Below, piece after piece: positions 3,604-59,241 of a stretch of DNA of 64,000 nucleotides (within the stretch, counting starts at the first letter, position 1; every line of letters begins with the position of its first letter). Made by a program: the position numbers and the translations under genes. Source of the DNA: Candidatus Uhrbacteria bacterium (GTDB lineage Bacteria; Patescibacteriota; Patescibacteriia; 2-12-FULL-60-25); NCBI GenBank assembly GCA_008363075.1, contig RHKK01000004.1, forward strand, positions 1 through 64,000, given 5' to 3'. Below the pieces are notes generated by a model. It did no database searches. It was given only the letters and a program-made list of their open reading frames with translations, and was not told where the DNA came from.

Positions 3604-6600
3604 ATGGAAAACAACAAATACAATCTGGTGGCGGAGAATTCTCAGAGCACAGTCGTCGCCGAGTACACGCCAGAGAAAACGCGTGCCGAGCACTATCAGA
3701 GTGAGGCCGAGCTTGAGCGTGCCTTCATTGATCAGCTTGGATCGCAAGCGTATGAATTCCTGCCGATCACAAGCGAGGCGGATCTTATTGCGAATCTTCG
3801 TGTACAGCTTGAAAAGCTCAACGATTACAGGTTCACCGATAAAGAGTGGGAACGCTTTTTTGTAAATGAGATTGCCAGCCAGAATCAAGGTATCGAAGAA
3901 AAGACGGCAACAATTCAAGAAGACTACATCAAGAATCTCGTCCGAGATGATGGCTCCACGAAAAACATATATCTTCTCCGCAAAGACAATGTTCACGATA
4001 ATTTGCTGCAGGTTATCAACCAGTACGCCACTGAGGACGGGCAGCGTTCAAACCGTTATGACGTTACCGTGTTGGTGAACGGTTTGCCGCTCGTACATAT
4101 CGAACTCAAGCGTCGAGGTGTCGCCATTCAGGAAGCGTTTAACCAAATCAATCGCTATCAACGCGAAAGCTTTTGGGCGGCATCTGGATTGTTCGAATAC
4201 GTGCAGCTTTTTGTTATTTCAAACGGCACGCATACCAAGTACTACAGCAATACGACCCGTTTTCAGCATATCAAGGAAGGTAACGAAGGAGCAGTAAAAC
4301 GCGGGAAGCGCGCGAGCAACAGCTTCGAGTTTACGAGCTGGTGGGCGGACGCAACTAATAAGCCGATCACGGATTTGATGGATTTTGGGAAGACCTTTTT
4401 TGCTAAGCATGCGCTGCTCAACATCTTGACTCGTTACTGCGTGTTCACGACTGATAAGCGGCTGCTTGTGATGCGCCCATATCAAATCGTCGCAACAGAA
4501 CGTATTTTGAATCGTATCGAGGTAAGCACTAACTATAAACAACTCGGCACCGTCGAAGCCGGGGGATACGTCTGGCATACCACTGGCTCGGGTAAGACGC
4601 TGACCAGTTTTAAGACCGCGCAATTGGCGAGCAAGCTTTCGCATATCGACAAAGTTATCTTCGTCGTAGACCGCAAAGATTTGGACTATCAAACGATGAA
4701 GGAGTACGACAAATTCGAAAAAGGCGCGGCAAATAGCAATACCAGCACCACCGTTTTGAAGCGGCAGCTCGAAGATCCGAGCGCGCGCATCATCATTACC
4801 ACGATTCAAAAGCTCGACAAATTCATTAAGGGCAATAAAGGGCATACCATCTTTGATGGTCATGTTGTTCTCGTCTTTGACGAGTGTCACCGTTCACAAT
4901 TTGGGGACATGCACGCCGCAATCACCAAGGCGTTTAACAGTTACCATCTTTTTGGATTTACCGGCACACCAATTTTTGCAGTGAATGCATCCTCCGGCGG
5001 ACGCCCGGACTTTAAAACGACTGAGCAGGCATTTGGTGAAAAGCTTCATACGTACACGATCGTTGATGCGATTGCAGACAAGAATGTCCTGCCGTTTAAG
5101 GTTGATTACGTTTCCACGGTTCGCGAGGCGGAAGACATTGAAGATAAGAAAGTAAGTGACATTGACCGTGAGGCGGTACTTGCTTCGCCTGAGCGACTGG
5201 AGAATATCGTGCGCTATATTCGGGAGCATTTTGACCAAAAAACAAAGCGTAATAGCTTTTACAAACTCAAGGATCGCAGGCTCGCGGGCTTTAACTCAAT
5301 CTTCGCGGTATCTTCGATTGATGCGGCAAAGAAATACTATACCGAGTTTAAGCGACAACTAGCTGACCAGCCGAGCGATAAGCAGCTCAAGATTGCCACC
5401 ATCTACAGCTTTGGCGTGAATGACGAAGATGCGGACGGCATGATCGATGAAAACTCCGAGGACACGAGCGGGCTTGATGTAAGTTCCCGCGCCTTCCTGG
5501 AAAAGGCGATTGCTGACTACAATGCAATATTTGGGACATCGTACGACACTTCGTCTGACAAGTTTCAAAACTATTACAAAGACGTGAGTCAGCGGGTAAA
5601 AGATCGAGAAATTGATATTCTCATCGTGGTCAACATGTTTTTAACCGGCTTTGATGCGACGACGCTTAATACGCTATGGGTGGATAAGAACCTGCGCCTA
5701 CATGGTTTGTTGCAGGCCTACTCGCGAACGAACCGCATTTTGAACAGCGTGAAGACCTTCGGAAATATTGTCTGTTTTCGCAACCTAGAAAAAGCGACCA
5801 ATGAAGCGATCGCGCTCTTTGGCGACAAAGAAGCCAGCGGTATTGTACTCCTGAAAGCGTATGAGGATTATTACAAGGGGTATAAGGATGGCAACAAAGA
5901 AGTACGCGGATACAAGAGTCTGGTGGAAGAGCTTTTGGAGAAATTTCCTGTGGGAGAGCGCATCGTGGGCGAACAGGATCAAAAAGATTTCATCAAGCTC
6001 TATGGTGCGATTTTGCGCGTGCGGAATATCTTGGTGACCTTCGACGAGTTTACAGGAAACGAAATACTCTCTGCTCGCGATTTGCAGGATTATCACAGCT
6101 TGTACATCGATTTGTACAACGAATTTCGCAAAACTGGCAATGCCGAAAAGGAGAATGTCAACGACGATCTCGTCTTTGAAATGGAGCTGATCAAGCAGAT
6201 CGAGATCAATATTGACTACATTCTCGGACTGATTAAGAAGTACCACGAAGACCACACCAAGAATAAAGAACTGCTCATCGACATTGATAAAGCGATCGAC
6301 TCCAGCATTGAGCTACGCAACAAAAAAGATCTTATCAATCAGTTTATCTCCAAGCTGGATGTTCATTCAGTGGTTGATGAAGATTGGCAAAAATTTGTTG
6401 AGCAGAAAAAAGTTGAGGAGTTGGAGCAAATCATTGAAGAAGAAGGTCTGAATCGTGAAGCGACATACGTCTTTATTCGAAACTCGTTTCGAGACGGAAA
6501 CGTTGCAACAACGGGCACGGCGATCTCAAAAGTATTGCCGCCTGTGTCTCGATTCTCGCCTGGCGGCGAGCGCACTCAGAAAAGAGAGAGTGCTTTGGCT

Positions 6601-6669: not shown

Positions 6670-7290
6670 ATGCCTTGGAATACGCTTTTAGCTGCATTAG
6701 CCGTATTCACTGCTATTCTGAGTGTTGTTAATGGACTGATACTTATCTATCAATTCCTAAGCGATCGGCCAAAGCTTGTTTTGTCATCAGTTCACCCCGA
6801 GGTGTATCAATGGTGGTTTCGGTTACCGGACGGTATGTATGAAGGTCAGGGAACGAAGAGATTTGGTTTTCTGCTTTACATGGGCATTGCGAACAAGGGC
6901 AAAAGAATCACTACGCTAACCTCATGGCGGCTTCAGGTCGTTACTTCACACGGAGAGTCGCCTCAGCTTAAGCCCCTGACCATACCTGAACCAATGCTCA
7001 TCTCGGATAGTGTTGGAAAAAAGTTCGCACAAGTACTAGGTGTTCGCGGTCAGTATTTCTTAGGCGAAACCACCGTAAGACCGGGAGAGAGTATATCTGG
7101 ATTCGTATACTATGTTTACGAATATTGGGGTGACAAAGAATTTGGCCCCAAGATCACGAATGACAAAATTCATGTGACGTTTAGAGTTCAAGATGTTTTT
7201 AGAAAAAAGAAGAAGGTTAAAATACAAACTAGTGAGAAACCGCTTAGCGAAATAGAGAGAATTATACCGGAAATAGCAACAATTAATTAG
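6670..7290 (+). CDS. Unknown membrane-anchored protein after hsdR
   Basis: A 206-residue protein that I do not recognise. One N-terminal membrane helix (about residues 5-30, LAALAVFTAILSVVNGLILI) is followed by a beta-rich soluble domain of about 170 residues ending in a lysine-rich tail (FRKKKKVKI). It starts 15 bases after hsdR on the same strand and shares the more AT-rich composition of the RM operon, so it was probably acquired with it. It could be an accessory of the defence island. The following 80 bases contain pyrimidine-rich repeats but no clear terminator. Confidence 0.65.
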   Translation: MPWNTLLAALAVFTAILSVVNGLILIYQFLSDRPKLVLSSVHPEVYQWWFRLPDGMYEGQGTKRFGFLLYMGIANKGKRITTLTSWRLQVVTSHGESPQLKPLTIPEPMLISDSVGKKFAQVLGVRGQYFLGETTVRPGESISGFVYYVYEYWGDKEFGPKITNDKIHVTFRVQDVFRKKKKVKIQTSEKPLSEIERIIPEIATIN

Positions 7291-8230: not shown

Positions 8231-8539
8231 ACTCTCCTGCGCACCCCGCCCTGCGTTCCTCCATCGGCAATGATCTCGCTCGCGGACAAGGCGATTTCGG
8301 GGACGCCTTGTGGGTTCACCGCTCGCTCATCAGCCGATATCCGGTACTCGGGAGGGTGTTTGCTTTCCCATCGCGCCCCTGAGGATCACAAGCGCGGCCC
8401 ATGAGCGAGGCCGATGCGGATGCCTGCTGTTGAAGCGAGCGAATCTTAAATGAAGATATTGAGCGAGCAAGTTCAGGCATCCAGGCCGAGCGAGATGGTG
8501 AGCCGCGCGAGAACCGGAAGTCGGCGCGAGCGGGAGGGT

Positions 8540-8569
8540 GCAGGGAGGGTGACGACTCACCCTCCCTGC
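8540..8569. repeat. Perfect 13-bp hairpin followed by TATAAT
   Basis: GCAGGGAGGGTGA and its exact reverse complement flank a CGAC loop. TATAAT at 8577-8582 lies 7 bases downstream, so the hairpin may sit just upstream of or overlap a promoter, or may mark the end of a transcript read from either side. Confidence 0.6.
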
Positions 8570-8721
8570 AAAGAGATATAATACATCCTATGTATCACCC
8601 TCTCCCTCCCGACTTCCGCGACCGGCCGCATCGCTGGTTTTGGAATCTGATGATTTTGTTTCGTCGGAGGCAGATCAAGGCGGAGTGCTGCGAGTCGTTT
8701 CGAAAACCACCGAAGGGAAGA

Positions 8722-17299: not shown

Positions 17300-17378
17300 T
17301 CGTTGCGAGGAGTACCAACGACGAAGCAATCTCATTCGATGGGTTCTGAGATTGCTTCGCTCCGCTCGGTCGGAATGA
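17300..17378. repeat. Dispersed palindromic element between tyrS and argS
   Basis: GAAGCAATCTCA (17323-17334) and TGAGATTGCTTC (17347-17358) form a 12-bp stem. The outer parts CGTTGCGAGGAG and CGCTCGGTCGGAATGA resemble element C in valS. It fills nearly the whole 88-base gap and may double as a processing or attenuation hairpin upstream of argS. Confidence 0.8.
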
Positions 17379-51008: not shown

Positions 51009-51983
51009 ATGAAGGCAAAAGGGCGAACAAGGGTCGCCGTACTGCTCGGAGGGAGCTCGTCGGAACGAGCCGTTTCTTTGGTCTCCGGCAGGATGGCGCT
51101 GAAATACCTCCCGTCCGACCGGTTCAAAACGACCCCGTACGACCCCGCCAAGACGAAGGACTTGGTGCGGCTCATCAAGGACGCACAGGCGGGGAAGATC
51201 GACGTCGTGTTCAATGCCTTGCACGGGACGCACGGCGAGGACGGCCACGTCCAGGGCCTGCTCGAGATTCTTGGCTTACCATACACGGGTTCCGGGGTCT
51301 TGGCTTCAGCGACGGCGTTCGATAAGTCGGCGGCGAAGGAGGCGTATCGCCGCGCGCGCATTCCATCACCGAAGGGAATGAAGGTGACAGGGGAAGCGTT
51401 CCGGCGCGACCCATCAGGCGTCCTGAAAAAGCTCCATGACCAGCTCGGCCATGCGATCGTCGTGAAGCCGAACGCGTCCGGGTCCAGTGTCGGGCTCTCG
51501 GTACGCCCGGTACGGAAGGCATGGAAAAGCGCCATCGCGAAAGCGTTACGTGAAGACGCGCACGCGTGCCTCGTCGAGGCGTTGATCAAGGGACGCGAAC
51601 TTACGGTTCCGGTTCTCGAAAAGAAGGGGGTGCCGCATGCGATGCCGGTGATCGAAATTCGGACGGCATCGGGTCTCTTCGACTATCAGGCGAAGTATCA
51701 CGATAAACGCACGCAGGAGATCTGTCCCGCGCCGATCTCGCGGCATGCGACCCGACTCGCCACACGTTTCGCGCTGAAGGCACATGCGGCAATCGGGTGT
51801 CGCGGCTACTCGCGTACGGATATGATTCTCGACGAGCGCGGTCGCCTCTGGACGCTCGAGACGAACACGTTGCCCGGGCTTACGCCCGCGTCACTTTTAC
51901 CAAAGGCCGCAAGGGAGGAAGGGATGGAGTATCCCGAGCTTCTCGTGCGCATCCTCGCCGAAGCACGAAGCGACGATAAATAA
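51009..51983 (+). CDS. ddl: D-alanine-D-alanine ligase
   Basis: A 324-residue ATP-grasp enzyme joining two D-Ala. GGSSSERAVSLVSG at the N-terminus, the substrate motif LHGTHGEDGHVQGLLE, the ATP segment VVKPNASGSSVGLS and the catalytic-loop end ETNTLPGLTPASL are all present. Together with alr and ftsQ it forms a small wall-precursor block. The stop lies in an AT-only palindrome. Confidence 0.95.
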   Translation: MKAKGRTRVAVLLGGSSSERAVSLVSGRMALKYLPSDRFKTTPYDPAKTKDLVRLIKDAQAGKIDVVFNALHGTHGEDGHVQGLLEILGLPYTGSGVLASATAFDKSAAKEAYRRARIPSPKGMKVTGEAFRRDPSGVLKKLHDQLGHAIVVKPNASGSSVGLSVRPVRKAWKSAIAKALREDAHACLVEALIKGRELTVPVLEKKGVPHAMPVIEIRTASGLFDYQAKYHDKRTQEICPAPISRHATRLATRFALKAHAAIGCRGYSRTDMILDERGRLWTLETNTLPGLTPASLLPKAAREEGMEYPELLVRILAEARSDDK

Positions 51984-51999: not shown

Positions 52000-52851
52000 A
52001 TGCGCATGAAGCGACGGGTCAGGCTCGAGGCGGGGGACGTGAACCGTGGTCTCCGGCAGGCCAAATCCGCCAAACGGCGCGTGGTGTTTGTATTGCTCGG
52101 CGTCGGTGCGGTATTCGGCTGGATATATTTGGTGTTCATCAGCGATGTTTTTTCCGTGAATGCCGTCGAGGTGAGGGGAGCGAAGGACCTGGATCCCGTG
52201 GAAGTGACGAGGGAAGTCTTAGACATCCTGGACGCGCGAGCGGAATTTCGTCCCTGGCCTCCTCGTCATGCGTGGTTTATCGATCCTCATTCGCTTGAAG
52301 AGAAGATAAAAAACAGACTTTTCGTACTGAACGCAACTGTGGAAAAGTCATGGGACAACATTTTACGACTCTCGATAGAGGAGAGGGTGAAACGGGTGAT
52401 ATTCCATTCACATCAGCAATATTTTTGGCTTGATCTTGAAGGAATCGCAGCGCAGGAGCTTTCGGATGAAGAAAGACGAGACGCACAGGCCCGCCTCCTC
52501 GGTCATCGTTCCGTGCGTCCCGACGAGCCTCCGATCATCAAACGTGATTTGAATGAACTGGTAGCGCCGGGTTTTGTTCTGACGGAAGCAAACGAGGCGC
52601 GGGCTTGGATCAGTTTATCTGAACAACTGGGTGCCGCAGGACTCTCGTATCGTGAATTTGAGCCTCCTACGGCCTCCAGCAGCCTTTTCAGGGTATTGAG
52701 CATCGAAGGATATACCGTACTAATGGATATAACGGCTCCGATTGAAAGCCAGGTCCACACGTATCAGGCCTTCATCAAAAACAAGCCTGAAGACCTCGGA
52801 CAGCCCGAATATATCGATGTACGTGTGCCGGGGCGCGTTTATTTGAAATAG
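52000..52851 (+). CDS. ftsQ: FtsQ/DivIB-like cell-division protein
   Basis: A 283-residue bitopic protein with a basic N-tail, one membrane helix (about 27-46) and an extracytoplasmic POTRA-like domain starting FSVNAVEVRGAKDLDPVEVT. The region TVEKSWDNILRLSIEERVKR is characteristic of FtsQ. It follows ddl, the usual dcw-cluster order. Either ATG 52000 or 52006 may start it. The rest of the cluster (ftsA, ftsZ) is not adjacent: the operon ends in a structured repeat array. Confidence 0.85.
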   Translation: MRMKRRVRLEAGDVNRGLRQAKSAKRRVVFVLLGVGAVFGWIYLVFISDVFSVNAVEVRGAKDLDPVEVTREVLDILDARAEFRPWPPRHAWFIDPHSLEEKIKNRLFVLNATVEKSWDNILRLSIEERVKRVIFHSHQQYFWLDLEGIAAQELSDEERRDAQARLLGHRSVRPDEPPIIKRDLNELVAPGFVLTEANEARAWISLSEQLGAAGLSYREFEPPTASSSLFRVLSIEGYTVLMDITAPIESQVHTYQAFIKNKPEDLGQPEYIDVRVPGRVYLK

Positions 52852-52873
52852 AGACATGAGCTGATTTTTCCTC

Positions 52874-53058
52874 AAGCATCCGCAACAGCAAGCATCTGCA
52901 ACGAAAAATCTGCGATAATGTTATAAGGACACCGGTTCGTGTTCAATCACTAGTGTTCCTATAAGCAGATTTTACGACGACATAGCGTTCGTAAAATCTG
53001 CGTTAATGTTATACGTCGCTAAAGTCTCGTCAGACTCACCTTAAGCGACGTATAACAT
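52874..53058. repeat. Structured array of direct and inverted repeats after ftsQ
   Basis: Direct repeats AAGCATCCGCAAC (52874-52886) and AAGCATCTGCAAC (52890-52902) are followed by a 21-base sequence AAAATCTGCGATAATGTTAT-A (52905-52925) that recurs at 52993-53013 with one change. GCAGATTTTACGA (52965-52977) pairs with TCGTAAAATCTGC (52989-53001), and ATGTTATACGTCGCT (53006-53020) pairs with AGCGACGTATAACAT (53044-53058), enclosing a second stem AGTCT/AGACT. No coding pattern. This covers most of the 310-base gap between ftsQ and sanA. Confidence 0.8.
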
Positions 53059-53093
53059 ATATTGTGCGACCCATGTGTATCCAACCGTTTCAA

Positions 53094-53161
53094 CCTCGAC
53101 GATCGCAACCCCATCCCCTCCCCGCCCAATTTTTTTGCGTGTTCGAGTCGAGGCTTTTTTT
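53094..53161. terminator. Possible terminator for sanA or the ftsQ unit
   Basis: CCTCGAC (53094-53100) and GTCGAGG (53147-53153) are followed by a run of T on the plus strand. The 46-base loop is long, so the assignment is weak. Confidence 0.35.
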
Positions 53162-53785
53162 TCATTCCACCGGGGATTTTGGTTGCCACATATAAACATC
53201 CCAGAACGCCTTGAAGCTCGCGAGCAAATCGCGTCCGAGGAAAAAACCGATCCGTCGGTATGTTCTCCGATCCGCAGCCAGACCCTGCACATCGATGCCG
53301 AATGAGTCGCACAAGAACAATGCGCGGCTCAAATGGAAACGCTGCGTCACGACGACGGCTTCCGTGATGCCATACACTTGTGCCGCGCGTTTGCAGCTCT
53401 CGTAAGTCCGATAGCCGTGTCCGTCCACGACGATATCCCCTGCAGGGACGCCGGCTTCGTGCGCCACACGTGCCATGGTTTCAACTTCGTTGATATGGAA
53501 CGCGCCGTCATCGCCGGTCATGAGCAGCGTGCGCACCTTTCCGTCCTTATACGCGTCTACCGCCTCCATGACTCGGTCTTCAAGTGCGTCCGACGGCGTT
53601 CCGTCCTGCTTCACGCTCGCGCCGAGCACGATCGCGTATTCCACGGGACGCAGGTCCCCGCGCTGATTCACGATCGACCCGGCTTCGACGAATTGCACGT
53701 ACCCGATCGCCCCCACGATCAACAGCGCCGTTGCGGTGACGGCGCCCGTGAGTCCGAGGAGCGTTCGCTTGAGGAGAAGTTTCAT
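53162..53785 (-). CDS. sanA: SanA/DUF218-family membrane protein
   Basis: A 207-residue protein of the SanA/YdcF (DUF218) group, which affects envelope integrity and vancomycin sensitivity at high temperature. An N-terminal helix (about 7-29) precedes the conserved AIVLGASVKQDGTPSDALED, LLMTGDDG, VDGHGYRTYESCKRA and VVTQRFHLSRALFLC motifs. Its start overlaps the end of rmuC by 4 bases, so it is coupled to it. Confidence 0.9.
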   Translation of the reverse strand: MKLLLKRTLLGLTGAVTATALLIVGAIGYVQFVEAGSIVNQRGDLRPVEYAIVLGASVKQDGTPSDALEDRVMEAVDAYKDGKVRTLLMTGDDGAFHINEVETMARVAHEAGVPAGDIVVDGHGYRTYESCKRAAQVYGITEAVVVTQRFHLSRALFLCDSFGIDVQGLAADRRTYRRIGFFLGRDLLASFKAFWDVYMWQPKSPVE

Positions 53786-59007: not shown

Positions 59008-59133
59008 AAGTCAGGAAAAGAGACGCGTCAAATCGCGTCCGTGCTGGGCCTTCGGGAGCGTGGTCCGGTGTGTCGCGCGGCGTGTCGCCGCCCGGTCGAA
59101 CCATTCGCGTGAAACGCTTCCGAGATGACCCGT

Positions 59134-59181
59134 CCACTACATCTAGTGGTGCAATTTCGATTCTACCACAAGATGTAGTGG
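59134..59181 (-). promoter_or_regulatory. nrd promoter with two NrdR-box-like palindromes
   Basis: CCACTACATCTAGTGG (59134-59149) and CCACAAGATGTAGTGG (59166-59181) lie 32 bases apart start to start, the three-turn spacing typical of NrdR operators. On the minus strand an extended -10, TGGTAGAAT (59160-59165 core), sits between them, so NrdR binding would occlude polymerase. Serves the operon beginning at 59007. Confidence 0.75.
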
Positions 59182-59241
59182 ACGACACAACTCGTCGAAA
59201 CCCTTGGAAAAACGGTTCGTTCGGCTTGGAATGTGGATAAC

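Follow-up and report, generated by a model that had tools for sequence, protein, structure and literature searches.

Paired hairpins adjoining the dif site of Patescibacteria, a candidate gene-less unit inserted by Xer recombination

Introduction

One of the closest described counterparts of the locus examined here is the attachment region of CTXphi. The central regions of its attP1 and attP2 measure 12 and 7 bases, respectively, and the two sites pair into a forked hairpin that constitutes the attachment site; integration leaves one working dif and two nonfunctional dif-like sites (PMC3089051). Recombination of a second phage, TLCphi, starts with XerD (PMC5357621). Among openly accessible papers, we found none on hairpins adjoining dif or on Xer/dif in Patescibacteria.

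Here, we describe an array of repeats behind an ftsQ-like gene in a 64-kb stretch of patescibacterial DNA (the whole analyzed stretch is referred to below as the window). The array consists of two copies of a two-hairpin unit of about 100 bases each, an eroded copy at 52860-52964 and an intact copy at 52965-53058, and it ends in a predicted dif site. Whereas CTXphi forms one forked hairpin, the unit forms two separate ones.

Results

All of the repeats listed in a first-pass annotation of the window were present at the positions given. These were a 21-base direct repeat (52905-52925 and 52993-53013; 20 of 21 bases identical), a perfect 13-bp inverted repeat (52965-52977 and 52989-53001), a perfect 15-bp inverted repeat (53006-53020 and 53044-53058) with a nested stem (AGTCT...AGACT) inside it, and a near-repeat, CAAGCATCYGCAAC (52873-52886 and 52889-52902). 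The annotated extent, 52874-53058, covered these repeats but closed too early on the right, where the feature runs to 53072, the end of dif. The array was also rightly described as unlike CRISPR, as it holds no regularly spaced repeats. The genome-wide search proposed for the 21-base unit returned no copy outside the array in the unit's own genome at three or fewer mismatches. A similarity at G000:C22 was discarded: it reaches no further than the CAAGCATC repeat in the loop of H1, and no dif-like site lies there.

The window contains five perfect inverted repeats of 13 bp or more (loop, ≤30), two of which fall within the array, and the same criterion retrieved none in any of 10 first-order Markov controls. 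The other three (13 to 14 bp, with short loops) are located at 8539-8570, 17322-17359, and 59131-59184. The RNA fold of 52852-53165 had a z score of -5.97. Folded as single-stranded DNA, the intact unit reached -31.6 kcal/mol (z = -10.98; 0 of 200 shuffles), and the eroded left unit alone (52860-52963) was no more stable than its own shuffles (z = -0.5).

TABLE 1 Features of the ftsQ-dif locus, with positions in the window
Feature	Position	Strand	Evidence or remark
ddl, D-alanine--D-alanine ligase (context)	51009..51983	+	NCBIfam NF002378 above cutoff; Pfam PF07478/PF01820
ftsQ-like gene, conserved left neighbor of dif by its end	52000..52851	+	POTRA_1 PF08478, E = 2.6e-4, just below curated cutoff
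H1, first hairpin of older, eroded unit	52860..52913 (arms 52860-52870 / 52903-52913)	+	Direct repeat with H3/H4 junction
H2, second hairpin of older unit	52920..52964	+	Left arm GTTATAAGGACAC, right arm GTGTTCCTATAA
Putative old D-arm scar, TGTTCCTATAA	52954..52964	+	Directly before newer unit; 7/11 to consensus, P = 0.05 alone
H3, first hairpin of intact unit	52965..53001	+	Perfect 13-bp stem with Xer-arm-like TTTTACGACGA at 52970-52980
Linker GTTA between H3 and H4	53002..53005	+	Unpaired in all folds
H4, second hairpin of intact unit	53006..53058	+	Perfect 15-bp stem
dif site	53045..53072	-	Conserved, one per genome, about 30 relatives; GC skew sign change
Terminator-like hairpin CCTCGAC...GTCGAGG, then T-run, beyond dif	53094..53164	.	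Sequence and RNA fold
DUF218/SanA-like gene, convergent right neighbor of dif	53162..53785	-	PF02698, E = 1.1e-22

The hairpin junctions of the two units form a 24-base direct repeat (52902-52925 and 52990-53013; 92% identical). In the intact unit, the stem of H3 holds the Xer-arm-like sequence TTTTACGAC, and TTTTACGACGA is present on both of its arms. The left arm of H4 is an inverted D arm (TTATACGTCGC, 53009-53019); its partner in the stem is the D arm of dif together with CAT, the first three bases of the center. The dif site itself comprises a D arm at 53045-53055 (GCGACGTATAA), a center at 53056-53061 (CATATA), and a C arm at 53062-53072 (TTGTGCGACCC); read on the minus strand, it is GGGTCGCACAA TATATG TTATACGTCGC.

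The first-pass annotation had seen no resemblance to a known dif site. This was incorrect: the last inverted repeat supplies, with its right half, one arm of dif. When the array was searched against 57 related genomes, the matches covered 53042-53075 and not the hairpins. Their alignment revealed a site of 28 bp in which a 6-bp center separates two 11-bp arms (consensus, GYGTCGTATAA-SATATA-TTGTGCGACGC). A weight matrix of the site was built from 28 relatives. Among 41 family members, dif was found in 26, one per genome, at the sensitivity used. Across about 30 relatives, the C arm is nearly invariant and the D arm is variable. In nearly all examined relatives of the class, dif lies 6 to 369 bp behind ftsQ, whose C terminus (..YIDVRVPGR/K..) is directly upstream; the order of ftsQ and dif is reversed in G273 and G090. 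A check of GC skew, also proposed in the annotation, placed dif at or near the skew switch. The skew changes sign at dif in a single-contig genome (G571, 112 kb) and near dif in G012 and in the contig analyzed here (G000).

The genome, which is 99.89% complete, contains one tyrosine recombinase gene (PF00589; G000:C8:20219-20776), and its product scores above the cutoff of an XerA-type NCBIfam model. Because the 28-bp site is conserved and single copy, lies at the skew switch, and is accompanied by one Xer-type recombinase, we identify 53045-53072 from its sequence as dif, the chromosome dimer resolution site, with Xer predicted to act on it. The site can serve as a marker of the terminus, placed beside ftsQ for one class of Patescibacteria. 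Of the functions suggested in the annotation, recombination or attachment pointed the right way, and a protein-binding array is partly right in that the arms match Xer half-sites.

Xer-arm-like sequences were also observed just upstream of xer genes (L177, around 7228-7280; L042, around 1118-1132), and in G417 this sequence is a full H3-like hairpin; these are possible autoregulatory sites. The xer gene of the genome analyzed here contains an in-frame, palindrome-rich stretch (SPPSKGGDDRGGLTP; L042, around 1808-1863) in its catalytic domain, resembling a small repeat insertion.

Both hairpins of the unit also precede dif in other members of the family (G018, G025, G027, G031, G035, G336, and G369). 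The full unit is present at 8 of the 26 dif loci of the family, and its distribution is patchy even within genera. A covariance model built from seven family units (R1) detected units beside dif in 19 genomes, which represent eight or more families of the class; a second model built from 20 units (R2) added about 10 units in other classes of the phylum. In total, about 30 Patescibacteria genomes carried the unit beside dif, and they belong to more than 15 families and to more than one class; the E values of the models are rough, and many of the genomes searched are fragmentary. Units scored 47 to 111 bits, and dif alone scored about 25 to 34 bits. In every strong case with a recognizable dif, the unit adjoins dif on the D-arm side. 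The order H3-linker-H4 is constant, and the Xer-arm-like sequence of H3 is conserved across classes. In G273 and G090, the unit and ftsQ are on opposite sides of dif.

The pairing of both hairpins was evaluated over 20 genomic copies. Of all cells, 95.7% were paired (0 of 500 shuffles), and controls with slid alignments reached at most 50%. Changes on both sides were found at 19 of the 26 pairs (86 such cells); of the 13 pairs in each stem, 10 in H3 and 9 in H4 showed compensatory changes. The alignment used (A4) was fitted to the structure of the model, which favors that structure, and a smaller MAFFT alignment (A2) agrees. Judged from these sequence comparisons, compensatory change has maintained both stems. 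Covariation also links the third base of H4 to the first base of the center of the host dif (pair 88:200; GC in 9, CG in 8), as a rule of strand exchange homology would require.

In G444 (L120) and G325 (L104), the dif-like site after the unit is divergent, with TTTTACGACGC or TTTTACGTCGC as its right arm instead of TTGTGCGACGC. Contig ends fall at the unit or within dif at the start of G366:C18 and the end of G336:C52, which would fit a branching of the assemblies at that point; mixed population forms or strong hairpins could cause such breaks.

A second D arm lies directly left of the unit in several genomes. It is GCGCCGTATAA in G369, GCGTCGTATA in G216, and ATGTCGTATA in G179, matching the D arm at 10, 10, and 8 of 11 positions, respectively, and at 7 of 11 in the genome analyzed here (TGTTCCTATAA). 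Against shuffled flanks, these putative scars had a combined P value of 4e-4 over 20 units, being clear in only 4 to 6 of the 20; among these units, no recognizable scar was present in G025, G035, G049, G084, G141, G280, and others. The scar of G369 is the D arm found in the dif of its congener G013, which is without the unit. G216 has an identical tandem copy of 50 bases, a duplication for which ordinary Xer exchange or homologous unequal exchange could be an alternative source. Between G336 and G369, ftsQ is 94% identical, yet the units and their flanks differ. The last bases of the scar, TATAA, abut the unit, and the host center follows the new D arm, which places the exchange at the border between the D arm and the central region. 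Taken together, the scars, the tandem copy, and the turnover of units suggest repeated insertion at this border.

No cargo genes were found inside any unit examined, only short loops. Neither a copy of the unit away from dif nor a form with cargo genes was found. The DNA upstream of dif in G719 and G216 contained only ordinary neighboring genes, and a 231-amino-acid open reading frame beside the first G216 unit had no Pfam match.

Viral contigs yielded 13 exact matches to a 24-base dif pattern, compared with about 0.01 expected by a rough estimate. One of them, a 3.9-kb inovirus-like contig (L334; IMGVR_UViG_3300009784_000101), encodes Zot (PF05707), Rep_OBD (PF01719), and small membrane proteins, with a full patescibacterial dif at 14-37 that overlaps the end of the rep gene. 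Among the viral contigs, its Zot matched only itself. Another contig (L258), with terminase, portal, and helicase genes, has a dif-like (not exact) site and an H4-like inverted D arm at around 6087-6209. Further dif or dif-like sites lie on L224, L229, L332, L333, L213, L335-L338, and other viral contigs. These observations point to phages, one of them inovirus-like, with patescibacterial dif sites. Phages that use the patescibacterial dif probably exist, and L334 is a candidate CTXphi-type phage of Patescibacteria. No virus found among the viral contigs carries the full H3-H4 unit; searches of these contigs with unit patterns gave nothing or chance matches in coding DNA, and the array had no match in a phage DNA collection.

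Discussion

We interpret the locus as a chromosomal dif into which a cargo-less unit of about 100 bp was inserted at least twice in succession, on the D-arm side, by Xer acting on a folded single strand; we regard this as close to an even call, with a slight lean in its favor. The unit would be a C'-arm hairpin, 3 to 4 nt, and a D-arm hairpin. On a folded single strand, the two hairpins would rebuild both Xer-binding arms, with a D-6-C' junction along one flank and, inverted, C'-(11-13)-D along the opposite one; these spacings come near the 7 and 12 bases of attP2 and attP1 of CTXphi, respectively. The single Xer of the host would swap one strand at the border between the D arm and the central region of dif. 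To the left of the unit, the D arm of the host would remain as a scar. The new working dif would combine the D arm of the unit with the central region and C arm of the host. The adjoining remnant would be an inverted, nonfunctional dif-like site with a spacer of 11 to 13 bases, and further rounds could produce arrays like that at 52860-53072. In this scheme, we infer Xer as the agent, a single-stranded substrate and integration intermediate, and movement between cells rather than only local amplification. We speculate that the uptake of single-stranded DNA by Patescibacteria is one route of transfer between cells.

The main rival explanation is that the hairpin pair is a selected, immobile, cis-acting accessory of dif; it could, for example, add Xer half-sites or form a cruciform by which the single Xer is loaded, restrained, or oriented. 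Its invariable position beside dif on the D-arm side, without cargo and in many classes, and the strong compensatory change in both stems agree with such a role. We nevertheless think it unlikely, given the patchiness within genera, where the full unit occupies fewer than a third of the dif loci of the family, and the complete replacement of units between genomes with nearly identical ftsQ; old D arms beside units and an identical tandem copy are likewise not expected of an immobile accessory. More improbable still is that Patescibacteria phages exploiting Xer (CTXphi-like inoviruses or tailed phages) lost their bodies and left the units as decayed attachment regions. The true patescibacterial dif sites on viral contigs, the Zot and Rep genes beside dif on L334, and the H4-type inverted arm (40 bits) near the dif-like site of the tailed-phage contig L258 all speak for this origin. 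The approximately 30 units, however, are compact: their stems are perfect, most of their loops measure 4 to 60 nt, and they contain no phage gene fragments. The viral contigs searched included no virus with both hairpins.

Errors of replication at the terminus, by fold-back or template switching, might copy half of dif in inverted orientation without a recombinase, and H4 in each genome does repeat, in inverted orientation, the local D arm plus a few flanking bases. Random fold-back would give neither the constant order of H3, linker, and H4 nor an Xer-arm-like sequence of H3 conserved across classes, which leaves this explanation very doubtful. We give the least credence to a regulatory RNA, as suggested in the first-pass annotation, or a terminator of ftsQ. 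Stable hairpins do lie downstream of ftsQ, but Rfam gave no match at E ≤ 1, the conserved parts of the stems are Xer-arm-like, many relatives are without the unit, dif separates the unit from ftsQ in G273 and G090, and a terminator-like hairpin is already present beyond dif (Table 1).

If successive Xer-mediated insertion is correct, recombination of folded single strands by a housekeeping Xer would no longer be confined to Vibrio phages and integrons and would span a large uncultured phylum. A broader proposal, which we advance only tentatively as a possibility, is that Patescibacteria harbor a gene-less mobile element, a self-folding strand of about 100 nt. The single Xer of the host would insert it into dif and exchange the D arm at every insertion; the dimer resolution site would be continually rewritten and its arrays would lengthen, in a gene-less parallel to CTXphi integration and integron cassettes. 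The size of the unit is within the range of oligonucleotide synthesis, so the origin of single-strand attachment sites would be directly testable.

Several known systems share features with the unit. Integron attC cassettes are folded single-strand sites for an Xer-related tyrosine recombinase, and their arrays grow at one receiving site; the unit differs in having dif-like arms and no integron integrase, attI, or cassette genes. An attC site was rejected as an identity for the unit, as its core motifs point in the wrong direction and an integrase is absent: neither intI nor attI was found, and the sole tyrosine recombinase of the genome scores far below integron integrase cutoffs. The pdif/dif modules of Acinetobacter are similar in that short Xer sites bound DNA segments beside dif, but they contain genes and double-stranded sites, and the unit has neither. 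XerH/difH, XerS/difSL, and archaeal XerA/dif likewise combine one Xer protein with one dif near the terminus; the accessible sections of PMC5357621 do not mention adjoining hairpin pairs in such single-recombinase systems. TLCphi-type IMEX share the D-side exchange to which the unit junctions point, and they differ in their double-stranded attP and full phage genome. The unit differs from CTXphi in having no phage genes, with a short loop in place of the phage body and no phage genome between the sites in any unit examined. In the unit, the junctions point to the D-arm border as the place of exchange; CTXphi instead uses XerC. The host of the unit has one Xer protein rather than XerC and XerD. 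The attP(+) of CTXphi-type IMEX of Vibrio cholerae nevertheless consists, as described in PMC3089051 and PMC5357621, of two inverted dif-like sites, with centers of about 12 and 6 to 7 bases, that pair on one strand into an Xer site. The unit, too, has inverted dif-like sites that pair on one strand, as indicated by covariation and folding. The paired sites of CTXphi adjoin a regenerated dif, as those of the unit would under the proposed insertion, and in both the pairing near the exchange point matches the dif of the host.
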